Below, in pieces: positions 27,094 to 32,122 of a stretch of 32,122 nucleotides of DNA. Within the stretch, counting starts at the first letter, position 1. The number at the start of each line of letters is the position of its first letter. Below the pieces are notes generated by a model. It made no database searches. It was not told where the DNA came from and saw only the letters and a program-made list of their open reading frames with translations. Origin of the DNA: Clostridiales bacterium (GTDB lineage: Bacteria > Bacillota > Clostridia > Oscillospirales > Oscillospiraceae); contig JAJQCJ010000037.1 in assembly GCA_021202775.1 (NCBI GenBank), forward strand, positions 1-32,122, read 5' to 3'. The translations under genes and the position numbers were made by a program.

Positions 27094-27344
27094 ACGGGGA
27101 AGGAAAAAACAGTGTTTTTGGTGGACACAGTTCTCTCCTGAAAGGCAATGTCATCAACTTAAGGTACAATCTATCCTGAGTTGAGGAGAAAAACGTAGCC
27201 TTACAATCAGATGTCCACGACCAAGGGGCAACAAAATTGCCGTCCGTTCCGCCGTAAGGCAGGAACGTGGGCGGCAATCCCGACCAGCCGCCATCGGCGG
27301 CAGCTTTGGTGCGTAACAGGTTACTTCGTCTGTTGCCTGACAGA

Positions 27345-27676
27345 CCACCTGATTGAGGAACAAGGCGAAGCCGCCAGTTGGATACGGGGAGATTCTTAAG
27401 AGGGGGTTCGCAGAACTCCCTCTTGAGCCGCCTTCTTTTGCTACTTTTCTTGGCGGAGTAATTTACGGCGTCCAAAAATGTGCCAGTGGCACATTTTTAG
27501 CCGGAAACCGATGCCAGCTATGCTGGCGAGGGTCACTGACCGAGGAGGATACCGTAAATGGTCAGCAGGCGGTAGTCAAGGCCCCGCTTCCCGGCAAGGG
27601 TAGGGAGCGCAGCGGAAATGCCGCTTCCCGGCAGGGAAGGCCGGGCAAAGTCTCGATAGCGAACGTTATCTAAGGA
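27345..27676. repeat. Dispersed non-coding module, copy 1 (inside the MITE-like element)
   Basis: Its two ends recur in reverse orientation at 31932-32122. One is GACCACCTGATTGAGG... with GATACGGGGAGATTCTTAAG. The other is GCAAAGTCTCGATAGCGAAC followed by GTTATCTAAGGAG. Between them this copy is longer and differs, carrying a perfect hairpin AAAAATGTGCC-AGT-GGCACATTTTT at 27474-27498. The stem starting CTTAAGAGGG is kept in both. Confidence 0.75.
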
Positions 27677-27739
27677 GCCCACCGTGAGGGAAAAAACTCT
27701 TTCCTTTCAACCACCTTTTCCAAGGAGGAAAGGTGGGCC

Positions 27740-28081: not shown

Positions 28082-28102
28082 GGACAAATTTGGTTCCTGT
28101 CC
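28082..28102. promoter_or_regulatory. Candidate operator A (GGACA-N11-TGTCC), upstream of the TetR gene
   Basis: GGACA at 28082-28086 and TGTCC at 28098-28102. The second site starts exactly 57 bp later. The left half also belongs to an overlapping palindrome TTGTTCA-A-TGGACAA. Confidence 0.5.
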
Positions 28103-28138
28103 GAATTTTCCCCGAACATCACTTTTTATTACATTTTT

Positions 28139-28160
28139 GGACAAAAACGGCCCTTTGTCC
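28139..28160. promoter_or_regulatory. Candidate operator B (GGACA-N12-TGTCC), upstream of the TetR gene
   Basis: The palindrome extends to TTTTGGACAAA (28135-28145) and TTTGTCCAAAA (28154-28164). It ends about 23 bp before the -35 element of the TetR promoter. CATTTTT precedes it, as it also precedes site D. Confidence 0.6.
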
Positions 28161-28182
28161 AAAAAGTTCCCCGGCCCGCACC

Positions 28183-28211
28183 TTGAGGACGCTGTCATTT
28201 TGTGCTAAAAT
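28183..28211 (+). promoter_or_regulatory. Promoter of the riboswitch-TetR transcript
   Basis: -35 TTGAGG (28183-28188) and -10 TAAAAT (28206-28211) have a 17-bp spacer. The predicted start is near 28218, a few bases before the conserved riboswitch core. Confidence 0.65.
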
Positions 28212-28220
28212 ACTGTAAAT

Positions 28221-28336
28221 AAGGGAGTAGTCGGCACCCCGTGCGATGATGTCAACATACTGGAACCCCTTCCTGGCTTCATCTGAAACGACGAGACTTA
28301 TCTACCGCCGTAGGTGAGCCCCGCCTTTTTCTTTTT
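28221..28336 (+). promoter_or_regulatory. yybP-ykoY (manganese) riboswitch
   Basis: The conserved blocks of this riboswitch class occur in order: AAGGGAGTAG at the 5' side, ATGTCAACATACTGG in the middle, GAGACTTATCTACC, a small CTAC-CGCC-GTAG hairpin, and GGTGAGCCCCGCC at the 3' side, then TTTTTCTTTTT. GGG near the 5' end can pair with CCC near the 3' end as P1. Known members bind Mn2+ and usually switch on manganese exporters. The T-tract right after P1 suggests transcriptional control. Here the first downstream gene is a TetR regulator 53 bp further on. Confidence 0.85.
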
Positions 28337-28388
28337 GTGAAGCCCTGCGGCATCCTGATTGCAGTCCCAGAGAGGAGGAGTGTGCGCC

Positions 28389-28991
28389 ATGGCGGATTCC
28401 AATATCACAAAACGGGCCCTGGCAGGGGCGCTGAAAGAGCTGATGGAGGAAATGCCCTTCGCAAAAATCAACATCAGCGACATCTGCGGCAAGTGCAACA
28501 TGAACCGCAAGAGCTTTTACTACCACTTCCGGGACAAGTACGACCTGGTGAACTGGATTTTCGACACCGAGTTCATCGCCATGGCCAGCCAAAAGAACTT
28601 TGACAACGGCTGGTCGTTTTTCGCGGAGCTGTGCCGTTTCCTGGACGCGGACCGGGACTTCTATCGCCGGGCCATGCAGATCAAGGGGCAGAACTCCTTT
28701 TCCGACCACTTCCGGGAGTTCCTCCTTCCCATCATTGCGGAGTACATGAAGCCCTACACGTCCGGCCAGGAGCCGCAGCCCTTTCACGTCACCTTTTTCG
28801 CCGACGCGCTGCTCTGCGCCATCGAGCGCTGGTTGCTGAGCAAAAACGCCATGCCTGCGGACGAATTTTCAAAGGAGGTCCGCGCCTGCTTCCGGGGTCT
28901 GGCCCTGGGGGTCTATCAGGAGATGAGCGAGGAGGAGCGGCAGGATTACCGGGCCTCCCTGGACCGGAGCCTGAACAATTCCAATCCATAA
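28389..28991 (+). CDS. TetR/AcrR-family transcription regulator (DhaS-like)
   Basis: A 200-residue regulator. The N-terminal helix-turn-helix is ITKRALAGALKELMEEMPFA followed by KINISDICGKCNMNRKSFYYHFRDKYDLV, the classic TetR pattern ending in FYYHF. The C-terminal ligand/dimer domain is of the kind found in DhaS-like TetR proteins. GGAGGAG lies about 9 nt before the ATG. Its leader carries a yybP-ykoY riboswitch and its upstream region two GGACA/TGTCC palindromes. The same pair of sites occurs upstream of the radical SAM gene, so I infer that it controls both. It converges with the radical SAM-like gene across a bidirectional terminator. Confidence 0.9.
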   Translation: MADSNITKRALAGALKELMEEMPFAKINISDICGKCNMNRKSFYYHFRDKYDLVNWIFDTEFIAMASQKNFDNGWSFFAELCRFLDADRDFYRRAMQIKGQNSFSDHFREFLLPIIAEYMKPYTSGQEPQPFHVTFFADALLCAIERWLLSKNAMPADEFSKEVRACFRGLALGVYQEMSEEERQDYRASLDRSLNNSNP

Positions 28992-28996
28992 ACGCC

Positions 28997-29044
28997 AAAA
29001 CAGCAGAGAACCGGAGCGTTTCCGGTGCTCTGCTGTTTTTTTTC
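28997..29044. terminator. Bidirectional terminator between TetR and the radical SAM-like gene
   Basis: AACAGCAGAG-AA-CCGGA pairs with TCCGG-TG-CTCTGCTGTT around a short loop, followed by T8 on the plus strand and by TTTT on the minus strand. Confidence 0.88.
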
Positions 29045-29060
29045 TGTCCGGAAGGGCGAT

Positions 29061-30137
29061 TCACACGGCCTCGTCCCCCAGCTGGAGCAGATTCTTTTTA
29101 TAGGTTTCATAGTTAGGCGCCCCGTCCTGCTTGGCCTGCGTCTCCAGCAGAATCCGGTACAGGCTGCTCCGGAAGATATTATACCCCTCCAGCCGCTTTG
29201 CCTCCGGCAGCCGGATCAGCGTCCCGTCCGTGTCAAAGGCCACGGCGCAGGCGTCGTCGGAGATGATGCTGTCGATGAACATATTGTCGCACAGCAGGTC
29301 CATCACTGCGGTGGGCTGCTGCTGGGCCTTCCGGGTGGTGCAGACGTAGCTGTATACCGCCTTCCTCTGGGCCGGGGTACACTGGGTGTTTCCATAGAAG
29401 AAGGTGAACGCGGCGCGGCACTCCTCCGCCCGGCCCAGCAGGGTGCCGTCCAGTACCTGCTCCAGTTCCTCCGGGCAATAGCCCACATGGACGGCATAGA
29501 GCAGCTTGGCCTTCCGCAGGGCGGTGCAGACCGTTTTCGTCCCCTCCTCCAGCGCGACGGAGAGCAGAAGGTTGTGATACTGCCGGGCCTGCCGGATGGC
29601 GTCCTCCGTCAGCGCCTCACCCTGACAGAACACCAGGAAGGCGCAGTCCGGGTGGGCCTCCACCAGGGCGAAGCAGTCCCTCAGGTCCCCCTGGGGGTAG
29701 AGCATATAGGTGTAAATGCCCAGCTCCGTCCCCTGCTGAATGATGCAGCGGTATTGCTCCGTCCGGCCCGGCGCACCATCCTCCGCCAGGAGCAGGGACA
29801 GGGACCAGGGGATGTTGAACTGCTTCTCCGACTCACACTGCCGGATGGTCTTTGCCCCCCGGGTGAAGCTGTTGTAGCCCAGATTGATGCCGCAGGTGAC
29901 CAGGGTATCCTCGTCCACGTTGTCGATGACATCCTGGGCCAGATGGTAATAGGCGCTGTCCTCATCGGCCAGCATCGTCTGGGCGATCCGGAAAAACTCC
30001 TGCTGGAACCGCCCTCCGGCAACGTTCAGCGCCAGGTCGATCAGATTGCGCATCGTCCGCTTGGGAGAACGCCGCAGATCCTTCAGGGCGCGCCGCACCG
30101 TTGTTTCAATGATCACCCGCGTAATATCCTTTCCCAT
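29061..30137 (-). CDS. Radical SAM-like pseudoenzyme (paralogue of the divergent radical SAM gene, cluster cysteines lost)
   Basis: A 358-residue protein that aligns end to end with the radical SAM protein at 30525-31913. Residues 16-80 (RALKDLRRSPKRTMRNLIDL) match RALRYL-type residues 19-85 of that protein. NIPWSLSLLLAEDGAPGRTE (108-127) replaces NAPWAILLDPTSACNLHC. IIQQGTELGIYTYMLYPQGD (132-151) replaces IVTQGKAIGTYMYIFTGGEP. AHPDCAFLVFCQGEALTED matches KHADCEFLSFTNGTLIDEQ. So the CX3CX2C site, the SAM-contacting GGE and the C-terminal cluster cysteines are all missing while the fold appears kept. It probably cannot carry out radical chemistry and may bind or regulate its partner. Start ATG 30137 behind AAAGGTG. 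Confidence 0.8.
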   Translation of the reverse strand: MGKDITRVIIETTVRRALKDLRRSPKRTMRNLIDLALNVAGGRFQQEFFRIAQTMLADEDSAYYHLAQDVIDNVDEDTLVTCGINLGYNSFTRGAKTIRQCESEKQFNIPWSLSLLLAEDGAPGRTEQYRCIIQQGTELGIYTYMLYPQGDLRDCFALVEAHPDCAFLVFCQGEALTEDAIRQARQYHNLLLSVALEEGTKTVCTALRKAKLLYAVHVGYCPEELEQVLDGTLLGRAEECRAAFTFFYGNTQCTPAQRKAVYSYVCTTRKAQQQPTAVMDLLCDNMFIDSIISDDACAVAFDTDGTLIRLPEAKRLEGYNIFRSSLYRILLETQAKQDGAPNYETYKKNLLQLGDEAV

Positions 30138-30169
30138 GATGGCACACCTTTCATCTCCGTTGAATTAGA

Positions 30170-30274
30170 GAACCTCTGAATAAATGAACAAGAGCGAGTT
30201 GCGAGGAAATTTACCGCAAGGCGCCGTCCCCTCCGGGGATTTCCTCTGGTCACAGCACATTTATTCAGAGTTTC
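30170..30274. mobile_element. 105-bp MITE-like element with 17-bp inverted ends
   Basis: GAACCTCTGAATAAATG (30170-30186) and CATTTATTCAGAGTTTC (30258-30274) are reverse complements with one mismatch. The core AAATTTACCGCAAGGCGCCG also occurs near the left window edge (50-69). It sits between the two divergent radical SAM-type genes and may have displaced or become part of the pseudoenzyme's promoter region. No target duplication was confirmed. Confidence 0.7.
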
Positions 30275-30342
30275 TTTACGCTCTGCGCCCATTCTATTCA
30301 AATACCGTATTCAGTTTACGGTGTCCGGGCGGAAAGCACAAG

Positions 30343-30364
30343 GGACATTGTGGCGGATTTGTCC
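30343..30364. promoter_or_regulatory. Candidate operator C (GGACA-N12-TGTCC), upstream of the radical SAM gene
   Basis: GGACA at 30343-30347 and TGTCC at 30360-30364, within a wider GGGACA/TGTCCC palindrome. Site D starts exactly 57 bp further on. Confidence 0.55.
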
Positions 30365-30399
30365 CAAAAGGTAACAGTTCCCGCCCATGTCCCATTTTT

Positions 30400-30421
30400 C
30401 GACACACTTTTCTCAGTGTCC
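30400..30421. promoter_or_regulatory. Candidate operator D (CGACA-N12-TGTCC), upstream of the radical SAM gene
   Basis: CGACA at 30400-30404 and TGTCC at 30417-30421, preceded by CATTTTT as is site B. It ends 25 bp before the -10 element, so it borders or overlaps the -35 region. A further TGTCC half-site lies at 30388-30392. Confidence 0.5.
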
Positions 30422-30446
30422 CGTGCTTTTTTCCGGGGGTATCGCT

Positions 30447-30452
30447 TATAAT
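30447..30452 (+). promoter_or_regulatory. -10 element of the radical SAM gene
   Basis: A perfect TATAAT about 72 bp before the ATG. No good -35 lies at the usual distance (TGCTTT at 17 bp), which is typical of promoters that need an activator bound next to the -35 region. Confidence 0.5.
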
Positions 30453-30524: not shown

Positions 30525-31913
30525 ATGAGTGAAAAGACCAGAGCTGTCAAGAATAATATGCAGGAATTTGCCATCAAGCAGGCCCTCAGGTATCTGGACG
30601 GCAACCCCAGAGAGAATCTGCCCAAGCTGATGAACATGGTGGACCGTTTTCTCCCGGACACCTGGTACGCCAACCAGCGGCGCACCTTCCGCAAGGTGCT
30701 GGAGGAGGACGACAACAACTGGTACCGCCTCATCATGCGGGTGTACGATGAGATCGACCGGGACGTATTCAAGACCTTCTTCCAGAACTTCATGCTCAAC
30801 GCCAGCCTGAAGGGCAGCGCCCTCCAGGATGAGACCGTTGAGAAGTACGGCTGCAACGCCCCCTGGGCCATTCTTCTGGACCCCACCTCCGCCTGCAACC
30901 TCCACTGCACCGGCTGCTGGGCCGCCGAGTACGGCAACCGGCTGAACCTGACCTTTGACGACCTGGATTCCATCGTCACCCAGGGCAAGGCCATCGGCAC
31001 CTATATGTACATCTTCACCGGCGGCGAGCCCCTGGTGCGGAAGAAGGACATCATCGCCCTGTGTGAGAAGCACGCCGACTGTGAGTTCCTGTCCTTCACC
31101 AACGGCACCCTGATTGACGAGCAGTTCTGCCAGGATATGCTCCGGGTGAAGAATTTCGTCCCCGCCATCAGCGTGGAGGGCTTCGAGACTGCCACCGACG
31201 GCCGCCGGGGCAGCGGCACTTTCCAGAAGGTGGTAAAGGCTATGGAGCTGCTGCGTGCCCACAAGCTGCCCTTCGGCATCTCCACCTGCTACACCAGCGT
31301 CAACTATGAGGACGTCACCAGCGAAGCCTACTATGACCAGATGATCGACTGGGGCGCCCTGTTCGTGTGGTACTTCCACTATATGCCCGTGGGGGCCGGG
31401 GCTGTGCCCGAACTGCTGCCCAACCCGGAGCAGCGGACGGTGGTGCATGACCGCATCCGGGGCTATCGGAATACCAAGGCCATTTTCAGCATGGACTTCC
31501 AGAACGACGCCCAGTATGTGGGCGGCTGCATCGCCGGCGGCCGCCGATACCTCCACATCAACGCCGCCGGAGACGTGGAGCCCTGCGTCTTTATCCACTA
31601 CTCCAACGCCAACATTCACGACTGTACCCTGCTGGAGGCCCTGCAAAGCCCCATCTTCATGGCCTACCACAACGGGCAGCCCTTTAACGACAATATGCTC
31701 CGGCCCTGCCCCATGCTGGAGAACCCGGAGCTGCTGCGGAAGATGGTGAAGGACACCAACGCCAGGCCCACCGACTACGAGTCCCCGGAGGATGTGGACA
31801 CCCTCTGTGACCGCACCACCCCCTATGCCCAGCGCTGGGCCCCCGTGGCGGAAGAGCTGTGGGAGAAGGATGCGGCGATCTACAAGAAGGAACACAGTCA
31901 GGGGAACCAGTGA
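30525..31913 (+). CDS. Radical SAM enzyme with N-terminal helical domain and Cys-rich C-terminal region
   Basis: A 462-residue radical SAM protein. Residues ~1-105 are a helical extension. The [4Fe-4S]-SAM site is CNLHCTGC (C124, C128, C131), and FTGGEPL holds the SAM amino group. Later cysteines (VGGC, VEPC, IHDC, RPC) suggest an auxiliary cluster of the SPASM/twitch type. The reaction and substrate are unknown to me; SPASM-type enzymes often modify peptides or proteins, but no small precursor ORF was seen nearby. AAAGGA lies 12 nt before the ATG, a slightly long spacing. It is divergent from its cluster-less paralogue, and two candidate operators lie upstream. A dispersed repeat begins 18 bp after the stop codon. 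Confidence 0.9.
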   Translation: MSEKTRAVKNNMQEFAIKQALRYLDGNPRENLPKLMNMVDRFLPDTWYANQRRTFRKVLEEDDNNWYRLIMRVYDEIDRDVFKTFFQNFMLNASLKGSALQDETVEKYGCNAPWAILLDPTSACNLHCTGCWAAEYGNRLNLTFDDLDSIVTQGKAIGTYMYIFTGGEPLVRKKDIIALCEKHADCEFLSFTNGTLIDEQFCQDMLRVKNFVPAISVEGFETATDGRRGSGTFQKVVKAMELLRAHKLPFGISTCYTSVNYEDVTSEAYYDQMIDWGALFVWYFHYMPVGAGAVPELLPNPEQRTVVHDRIRGYRNTKAIFSMDFQNDAQYVGGCIAGGRRYLHINAAGDVEPCVFIHYSNANIHDCTLLEALQSPIFMAYHNGQPFNDNMLRPCPMLENPELLRKMVKDTNARPTDYESPEDVDTLCDRTTPYAQRWAPVAEELWEKDAAIYKKEHSQGNQ

Positions 31914-31931
31914 GATTTGGTTCCGGTTTTC

Positions 31932-32122
31932 TCCTTAGATAACGTTCGCTATTGAGACTTTGTCCGGCCTTCCCTTGCCAGGGAAGCGGGGGCCTGCTTT
32001 TCTCGATTCGTCGAGAAAAGCAGCAAAAGAGGACGACTTAAGAGGGGGACCTGTGGTCCCCCTCTTAAGAATCTCCCCGTATCAGGCAACCGGCTTGCGC
32101 CTTGTCTCTCAATCAGGTGGTC
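31932..32122. repeat. Dispersed non-coding module, copy 2 (cut by window edge)
   Basis: An inverted copy of the module at 27345-27676 with a shorter, different middle. It contains two perfect hairpins: CTGCTTTTCTCGA-TTCG-TCGAGAAAAGCAG (31994-32023) and CTTAAGAGGGGGACC-TGT-GGTCCCCCTCTTAAG (about 32036-32068). The first may also end transcription of the radical SAM gene. It runs past the window end. Confidence 0.8.

Follow-up and report, generated by a model that had tools for sequence, protein, structure and literature searches.

In Lactococcus lactis, the dha operon is reportedly switched on by DhaS, an activator of the TetR family whose operator, GGACACAT-N6-ATTTGTCC, is said to lie beside the −35 element. 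The reported partner of DhaS is DhaQ, a catalytically dead paralogue of the dihydroxyacetone (Dha)-binding kinase subunit. The locus compared with this system here comes from a gut bacterium of the Clostridiales (assembly GCA_021202775.1, contig JAJQCJ010000037.1, positions 1–32,122; this whole stretch of 32,122 nucleotides is referred to as the window). It contains a gene for a TetR-family regulator, a gene for a radical S-adenosylmethionine (SAM) enzyme and, between them, a gene for a paralogue of the enzyme that lacks the iron-sulfur cluster motif. Palindromes of the form GGACA-N11/12-TGTCC lie upstream of these genes. By analogy, the arrangement suggests that a switch of the DhaS/DhaQ type has been rebuilt here around a radical SAM enzyme.

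The two systems resemble each other in several respects. The TetR protein of the window matches the DhaS model, the predicted operator is an almost identical 22-bp inverted repeat, GGACA...TGTCC, and it is positioned at or next to the −35 element (of predicted promoters here). In both, a paralogue of the controlled enzyme is encoded alongside and has lost the catalytic residues. There are also differences. Here the enzyme is a radical SAM protein instead of a dihydroxyacetone kinase, and no kinases are found among the annotated recurrent neighbours, a negative drawn from annotation and not from a search aimed at kinases with a model. The operators here are set in an array phased at ∼29 bp, in some species the regulator gene follows a riboswitch-like leader, and the co-activator role of the paralogue is only proposed. 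A further point of comparison is SPV_0647, a TetR protein of Streptococcus pneumoniae linked to membrane homeostasis; among its structural matches are DhaS and a regulator of Dha kinase from Listeria (PMC12647141). SPV_0647 belongs to a different locus, and the term radical SAM is absent from the main text of that paper.

We favor the reading, at a probability of roughly 0.6, that the four palindromes of the window are operators of a DhaS-like TetR protein that acts mainly as an activator, with the cluster-less paralogue as sensor and co-activator. That the TetR protein binds the sites and mainly activates is quite probable; that the paralogue is the ligand sensor and co-activator stands at about even odds. 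A preliminary description of the window had read two pairs of palindromes as a link between the TetR and radical SAM genes. Its interpretation is partly supported: the central idea is correct, and what it lacks is the most interesting part.

Proposed operator sites and predicted promoter geometry

Re-reading of the sequence locates all four palindromes at the starts given in the preliminary description, 28082, 28139, 30343, and 30400. Site A (28082–28102, GGACA-N11-TGTCC) is the distal site 5′ of the TetR gene, and site B (28139–28160, GGACA-N12-TGTCC) lies 22 nt before the predicted TetR −35. Site C (30343–30364, GGACA-N12-TGTCC) is the first in an array, adjoins the predicted −35 of the paralogue gene and is thus also upstream of that divergent gene (29061–30137), while site D (30400–30421, CGACA-N12-TGTCC) adjoins the predicted −35 of the radical SAM gene. 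No strand is assigned to any of the sites. The start-to-start spacing of 57 bp in both pairs and the CATTTTT that precedes B and D were also re-found, and the observation of four sites with matched spacing is confirmed. The pairs had been called identical arrays; this is true of their spacing and not of their core sequences, which differ. The judgment that chance is an unlikely source also holds, since the exact pattern with spacers of N10–13 occurs three times in 32 kb against 0.15 expected (20-fold) and none of 100 shuffles reaches three. When the window is scanned with an N12 matrix whose training sites came from other species, some of them close relatives, sites B, C, and D are the top three positions (30.4, 28.2, and 13.4), and the next best position scores 2.1; site A, with its spacer of 11, is unscorable by this matrix.

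In the bacterium's own genome, GGACA-N11/12-TGTCC occurs at 26 places versus 9 for the reversed pattern. Nineteen of the 26, including three of the window sites, were inspected with their flanks and the other seven by core only. Outside the window, the N12 sites scored with flanks reach at most 14.5, compared with 30.4 for B and 28.2 for C (N11 sites were left unscored); the seven core-only sites score 11.7–18.5, compared with 23.6 and 22.9 for B and C. All of the flanked sites outside the window fall within open frames of at least 135 codons, which proves little because site C itself sits in an open frame of 522 codons.

A scan of 84,980 species genomes with one peptide pattern from the paralogue gave 106 confirmed places, of which 80 loci were taken. 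They belong mostly to Clostridia (including Acetobacterium and Fusibacter) and also to Amedibacillus, bins labelled Bacilli, Anaerolineaceae, and Chloroflexi. All three genes are present in 38 loci, TetR and paralogue in 16, enzyme and paralogue in 9, and the paralogue alone in 17, counts that are limited by the many stretches ending at contig edges. The enzyme and paralogue genes are divergent in 40 of 47 loci, and the paralogue and TetR genes are convergent in 51 of 54. Exact GGACA-N12-TGTCC is found in 24/75 TetR, 42/90 paralogue, and 30/80 radical SAM distinct upstream regions; in these counts, as in the leader counts below, loci overlap between collections and only identical regions were merged. 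No other spacer between 0 and 30 is seen in more than three regions, except N11 at the TetR gene (eight regions), and 50 first-order resamplings of the upstream regions yield no matches.

A leave-one-locus-out matrix places a site above 99% of the null in 27/53 TetR, 73/80 paralogue, and 44/48 radical SAM regions. Checked across species in this way, the palindromes are conserved upstream of the orthologues of both genes named in the preliminary description. Matrix matches above 10 in the 80 loci number 117 in 65,231 bp of target and 6 in 981,907 bp outside, where the 400-bp target regions include those upstream of the P-type ATPase cluster and supplied the training sites (tested locus excluded), so that target matches are favored to that extent. 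A wide scatter of the motif in unrelated places is ruled out by these counts. The matrix counts use the named loci, and the leave-one-out counts, as well as the motif counts for the enzyme and paralogue below, also include the window; alignment A3 was made without L206, L130, L133, L134, L142, L190, and L191, and alignment A6 without L133, L175, and L171 (too short). Sites are retained where the paralogue is only 31%–45% identical and the flanking DNA has diverged. One strong operator (L164, 5183–5204; score 33.3) lies outside the 400-bp targets, ∼740 bp upstream of a TetR frame.

The spacing of 57 bp proves to consist of two steps of ∼29 bp. In all three groups of upstream regions, the mean matrix score around the best site has maxima at offsets of 29 and 57/58, and the added sites extend toward the gene at the radical SAM promoter and away from it at the TetR and paralogue promoters. 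The means at these offsets are well over background yet negative, which indicates that the added sites are degenerate. A reading with two sites only is ruled out by the peak at 29 besides that at 57/58; the pair seen in the preliminary description is real, and the degenerate middle site was overlooked. In the window, this weak middle site (30371–30392, GTAACA-N11-TGTCC, no strand), identified by sequence reading, the offset peaks and the promoter consensus elsewhere, has its center 28 bp from that of C and 29 bp from that of D. The radical SAM promoter consensus reads GGGACA-N12-TGTCC(C)-AAAAGGTAACA-N11-TGTC-N-C-AAATTTGGGAC-N-TGTCC-AATGAC, followed by the −10, and 33 of 48 promoters fit TGTCC-N24/25-(−10).

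The distance from the site to the predicted promoter is also fixed. At the radical SAM gene, a −10-like hexamer follows the end of the site by 24 nt (16) or 25 nt (6) among 51 half-sites, by far the commonest distances, and at the paralogue gene by 24 nt (23) or 25 nt (2) among 66; many half-sites belong to distal sites of the arrays, so some are not expected to face a promoter. A −35-like hexamer begins at +1 after the site in 12 radical SAM and 22 paralogue half-sites. At the TetR gene, 12 of 25 half-sites have such a hexamer starting 22 nt farther on. The window shows the same gaps to its predicted promoters: 25 nt from D to the −10, 24 nt from C to the −10 on the minus strand, and 22 nt from B to the −35. 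The predicted radical SAM promoter (30424–30452, plus strand) combines a weak −35, TGCTTT (30424–30429), with the −10 TATAAT (30447–30452). That of the paralogue (30313–30341, minus strand) has TTGTGC (30341–30336) and TAAACT (30318–30313), a geometry that recurs in other species. That of the TetR gene (28183–28211, plus strand), read from the sequence, has TTGAGG (28183–28188), a 17-nt spacer, and TAAAAT (28206–28211). The 24–25 nt geometry fits the position of an activator at the predicted radical SAM and paralogue promoters, and its constancy in many species supports the hint of activation given in the preliminary description.

The regulator, the enzyme and the cluster-less paralogue

The TetR gene (28389–28991, plus strand) encodes a protein of 200 amino acids with the Pfam domains TetR_N and TetR_C_8. 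Its best curated model is that of the activator DhaS, TIGR02366 (117.6 bits, E 5.8e-34), a model matched at E ≤ 1e-10 by all 43 of the 43 TetR members scanned. The nearest solved structures are PDB 4mk6, a probable Dha-kinase regulator, and 2iu5, DhaS of L. lactis. Alignment A7 covers 42 of the 54 listed TetR copies. A hairpin followed by a T run, 3′ of the gene (28997–29050, plus strand), is a likely terminator.

By fold and sequence, the radical SAM gene (30525–31913, plus strand) encodes a SPASM-like enzyme, 462 amino acids in length. PF04055 matches with 64.2 bits (gathering score 29.5) and the motif CX3CX2C is present; the SPASM family PF13186 scores 20.0 bits, just under its cut-off of 21.5. 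The nearest structures in a fold search are SuiB, anSME, SkfB, and viperin. Like the radical SAM/SPASM enzymes anSME, SkfB, SuiB, and PqqE, which stand closest to it in sequence and fold, the protein has CX3CX2C, the barrel and a SPASM-like C terminus; unlike them, it carries a helical N-terminal domain of ∼110 residues. Because DegV and other lipid genes neighbor the enzyme gene, the tetraether or membrane-spanning lipid synthase (Mss) described in PMC11868695 and PMC13274423 was considered as well. This identity is not supported by the fold search, which gives SuiB, anSME, SkfB, and viperin instead, and the profile match to the archaeal GDGT-MAS structure 7tol is marginal (74 columns, E 0.0044); it may still serve as a lead.

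The gene between the regulator and the enzyme (29061–30137, minus strand) encodes 358 amino acids and is a diverged copy of the enzyme that has lost the cluster motif and kept the barrel and the N-terminal domain. No Pfam family, PF04055 included, matches the protein at E ≤ 0.1, and its profile finds no public structure by sequence at E ≤ 1. The relationship emerges from direct comparison with the enzyme: BLASTP aligns the two at E 2e-14, with a gap spanning the cluster motif, and hhalign gives 99.9% probability over 327 columns. In the confident AF2 model (pLDDT 89), the predicted fold is radical-SAM-like, with SuiB, SkfB, and viperin as the nearest structures. All 48 enzymes examined have CX3CX2C, and none of 81 paralogues does. 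Two close relatives (L046/L133 and L050/L134) have a paralogue divided between two frames and retain the enzyme; in these, the paralogue may be decaying or misassembled.

The TetR mRNA has a structured leader (28216–28342, plus strand) that resembles the yybP-ykoY (Mn2+) riboswitch and includes a terminator-like hairpin. The operators in this region were noted in the preliminary description and the leader was overlooked. Upstream of the 91 TetR genes examined, 18 distinct copies were found, under several taxon labels, and in an alignment of 18 leaders double changes occur at 10 of 28 predicted pairs (alignment A5 holds 16 of the 18, without L179 and L181, plus L172 and L159). The leader contains GGGAGUAG and GAGAC strands and a junction of helices, and the terminator-like hairpin overlaps the switch helix. 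These features recall the yybP-ykoY riboswitch (RF00080), for which a 3′ strand GAGACC and an antiterminator mechanism are described in PMC6754395. Unlike it, the leader precedes a regulator gene and scores only 21.7 bits in the window and 24.4 in L105 and L047, below the gathering score of 45, so that Mn2+ sensing is putative. At the Rfam gathering threshold, no riboswitch was found before any TetR gene in 14 loci; the single FMN riboswitch in that scan, in L179, lies away from the TetR gene. At E ≤ 0.5 in seven loci, RF00080 was matched only in L105 and L047, with L103, L119, and L188 lacking a match and the leaders of L147 and L172 matching the Streptococcus sRNA SSRC10 instead (29.7 bits versus a cut-off of 56).

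Co-occurrence, proposed mechanism and alternatives

The distribution of the genes was computed in 98 genomes at thresholds of 115 (TetR), 200 (paralogue), and 500 bits (enzyme), placed where the lists of scores show gaps. TetR and paralogue occur together in 22 genomes, the paralogue without TetR in 3 (G023, G029, and G033), and TetR without the paralogue in 5; by genus, the respective numbers are 7, 1, and 1 of 61. Enzyme and paralogue also occur together in 22 genomes, the paralogue without the enzyme in 3, and the enzyme without the paralogue in 12. Among the 34 genomes with the enzyme, TetR is present in 20 of 22 with the paralogue versus 4 of 12 without it (p 0.0009, relatedness within genera uncorrected). 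For 38 copies of the radical SAM gene in loci of the relatives, site presence was scored at cuts of 4.3 and 10. At the lower cut, 18 of 21 copies have a site where the genome holds TetR and paralogue, 2 of 2 where it holds the paralogue alone, 4 of 6 where it holds TetR alone, and 1 of 9 where it holds neither; at the higher cut, the numbers are 16/21, 2/2, 3/6, and 1/9. From these genome and site counts, the paralogue tracks the regulator more than the enzyme, as expected of a co-activator. The proposed link between the TetR and radical SAM genes is borne out by sites that are conserved at both, rare elsewhere in the same loci, and mostly missing without the partners. What had escaped notice is the paralogue between them, though C has the same promoter geometry toward that gene.

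In the mechanism that we infer, the TetR protein would bind at D and C, directly upstream of weak −35 elements, and recruit RNA polymerase, rightward to the radical SAM gene from D and leftward to the paralogue gene from C. Site C, the weak middle site and D would form the ∼29-bp-phased array on which TetR dimers bind co-operatively. The paralogue would bind the substrate of the enzyme or a related ligand, and the loaded form would join TetR as a co-activator in the manner of DhaQ. The riboswitch-like terminator leader may add a second gate on the TetR gene.

Several observations weigh against this reading. The co-occurrence figures ignore kinship within genera, and 5 of the 27 TetR genomes are without the paralogue, which indicates that it is not always needed. 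The site is missing in 3 of 21 radical SAM copies with both partners and present in 1 of 9 with neither, and G048, which has neither partner, carries a near-miss palindrome, AGACA...TGTCT (3.6). G033 (L221, 2396–3415) has an intact, more distant paralogue frame with no TetR or enzyme match, and its 5.4-kb contig holds no site within one mismatch. In the leave-one-locus-out analysis, 26 of 53 TetR regions are without a clear site. The middle site of the window scores just −3.2 with the N12 matrix, by which no middle site is evident between A and B. The 117.6 bits of the window TetR protein fall below the TIGR02366 cut-off of 129. The TetR promoter has a good predicted −35 that begins 22 nt beyond the site, so TetR autoregulation may be of either sign. 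Finally, members of the TetR family are for the most part repressors, and with D next to the −35, repression by steric hindrance is conceivable.

The prevalence of repressors in the family and the position of D agree with an alternative in which TetR is an ordinary repressor that blocks the −35 regions at the same operators and is freed by a small ligand of its own, the paralogue being merely another target. C also adjoins its predicted −35, and the weaker matches of the window protein include repressor models. We consider this alternative rather unlikely. The sites are found just upstream of the −35 and not over the −35/−10 spacer or the start, at the fixed distance from the predicted −10, and the weak −35 of the radical SAM gene in the window is as expected of an activated promoter; the uniform match of the TetR members to the DhaS activator model also argues against repression.

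A role for the paralogue as a subunit or substrate-presenting partner of the enzyme, co-regulated with it and without a regulatory function, is given about the same low likelihood. The two proteins have the N-terminal domain and barrel in common, their genes are mostly divergent, and inactive paralogues often serve as subunits. Against this, the enzyme is without the paralogue in 12 of 34 genomes, 8 of which are also without TetR, and the paralogue follows the regulator better than it follows the enzyme. In G006, G007, G015, and G023, the paralogue is on a different contig from the full-length enzyme and has kept its own operator, and G004 (67% complete) and G031 (93% complete) have paralogue and TetR with no full-length enzyme match.

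It is improbable that a protein other than the neighboring TetR binds the palindromes. G023 would fit this idea, with enzyme, paralogue, and a strong site and no TetR match, although its assembly may miss the TetR gene; against it, TetR and paralogue occur together in seven genera, the sites follow both genes, and the half-sites and the length of 22 bp agree with those reported for the DhaS operator. A chance match, or conservation through recent common ancestry alone, can be dismissed: six relatives are 95%–98% identical in the enzyme, and recent descent explains part of the conservation, but the exact-pattern, matrix, and specificity counts, the shuffles and resamplings, and the persistence of sites beside strongly diverged paralogues and amid diverged DNA refute it.

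Neighboring genes, repeats and significance

A P-type ATPase gene is found nearby in 17 loci (profile-checked in L146 only, as PMR1/PMCA type). An operator with at most one mismatch precedes 9 of 18 copies of this gene (L139, L140, L143, L146, L150, L177, L189, L201, and L202). In all nine, it is followed by a GTAACA-like element (GTAATA in L150), and the region is largely common to that of the TetR gene; a −10-like hexamer lies 24 nt away from the second site in L150 and in L202. In the bacterium's own genome, the best matches to P-type ATPases of the neighboring type are 32%–33% identical.

Genes related to lipids also recur. A DegV/FakB-like gene lies directly 3′ of the enzyme gene in 12 of 86 loci, in which some genomes are counted twice (L145, L159, L164, L166, L178, L190, L198, L208, and others; profile-checked in L178 only). 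In 9 of 81, a patatin-like gene sits next to the paralogue and shares its strand (L158, L167, L169, L170, L175, L178, L179, L190, and L198; profile-checked in L190 only), and a PlsY-like gene is found in two loci and a phosphatidyltransferase gene in one. Because of the recurrent DegV/FakB-like and patatin-like neighbors, it is a fair guess, and no more, that the substrate of the enzyme is a lipid.

The window also contains repeats. An element of ∼110 bp with terminal inverted repeats (30166–30278) lies between the predicted promoter and the start of the paralogue gene, and parts of it have at least 50 matches in the bacterium's own genome; in the related L049 and L051, the distance from site to start at the paralogue is 110 bp shorter. 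The three-gene locus is flanked by inverted copies of a dispersed repeat (27343–27684 and 31924–32122), again with at least 50 matches in the genome.

In the open literature, most subscription journals being outside the search, the terms radical SAM, DegV, TetR, and fatty acid were not found together, wording for a radical SAM pseudoenzyme yielded only "radical SAM-like," and DhaQ was found with DhaS only in papers titled on other subjects.

A broader principle may be put forward tentatively, at somewhat less than even odds. TetR activators of the DhaS type may have as their partner a dead paralogue of whatever enzyme they control, which serves as a substrate sensor. Here, a pseudo-radical-SAM protein without the iron-sulfur cluster motif would read the substrate of the working enzyme, probably a membrane lipid or fatty acid, and act through a 29-bp-phased array of three dimers, under a Mn2+-riboswitch-like leader and, in some species, together with a gene for a P-type ATPase of the Ca2+/Mn2+ type. 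If this is true, DhaS-DhaQ would exemplify a portable design that turns the dead copy of an enzyme into a sensor of its substrate, and the radical SAM fold would be used in regulation instead of catalysis. It would also provide a handle on an uncharacterized radical SAM enzyme that gut and other Clostridia carry, as the ligand of the paralogue would be the substrate of the enzyme or a close relative of it.

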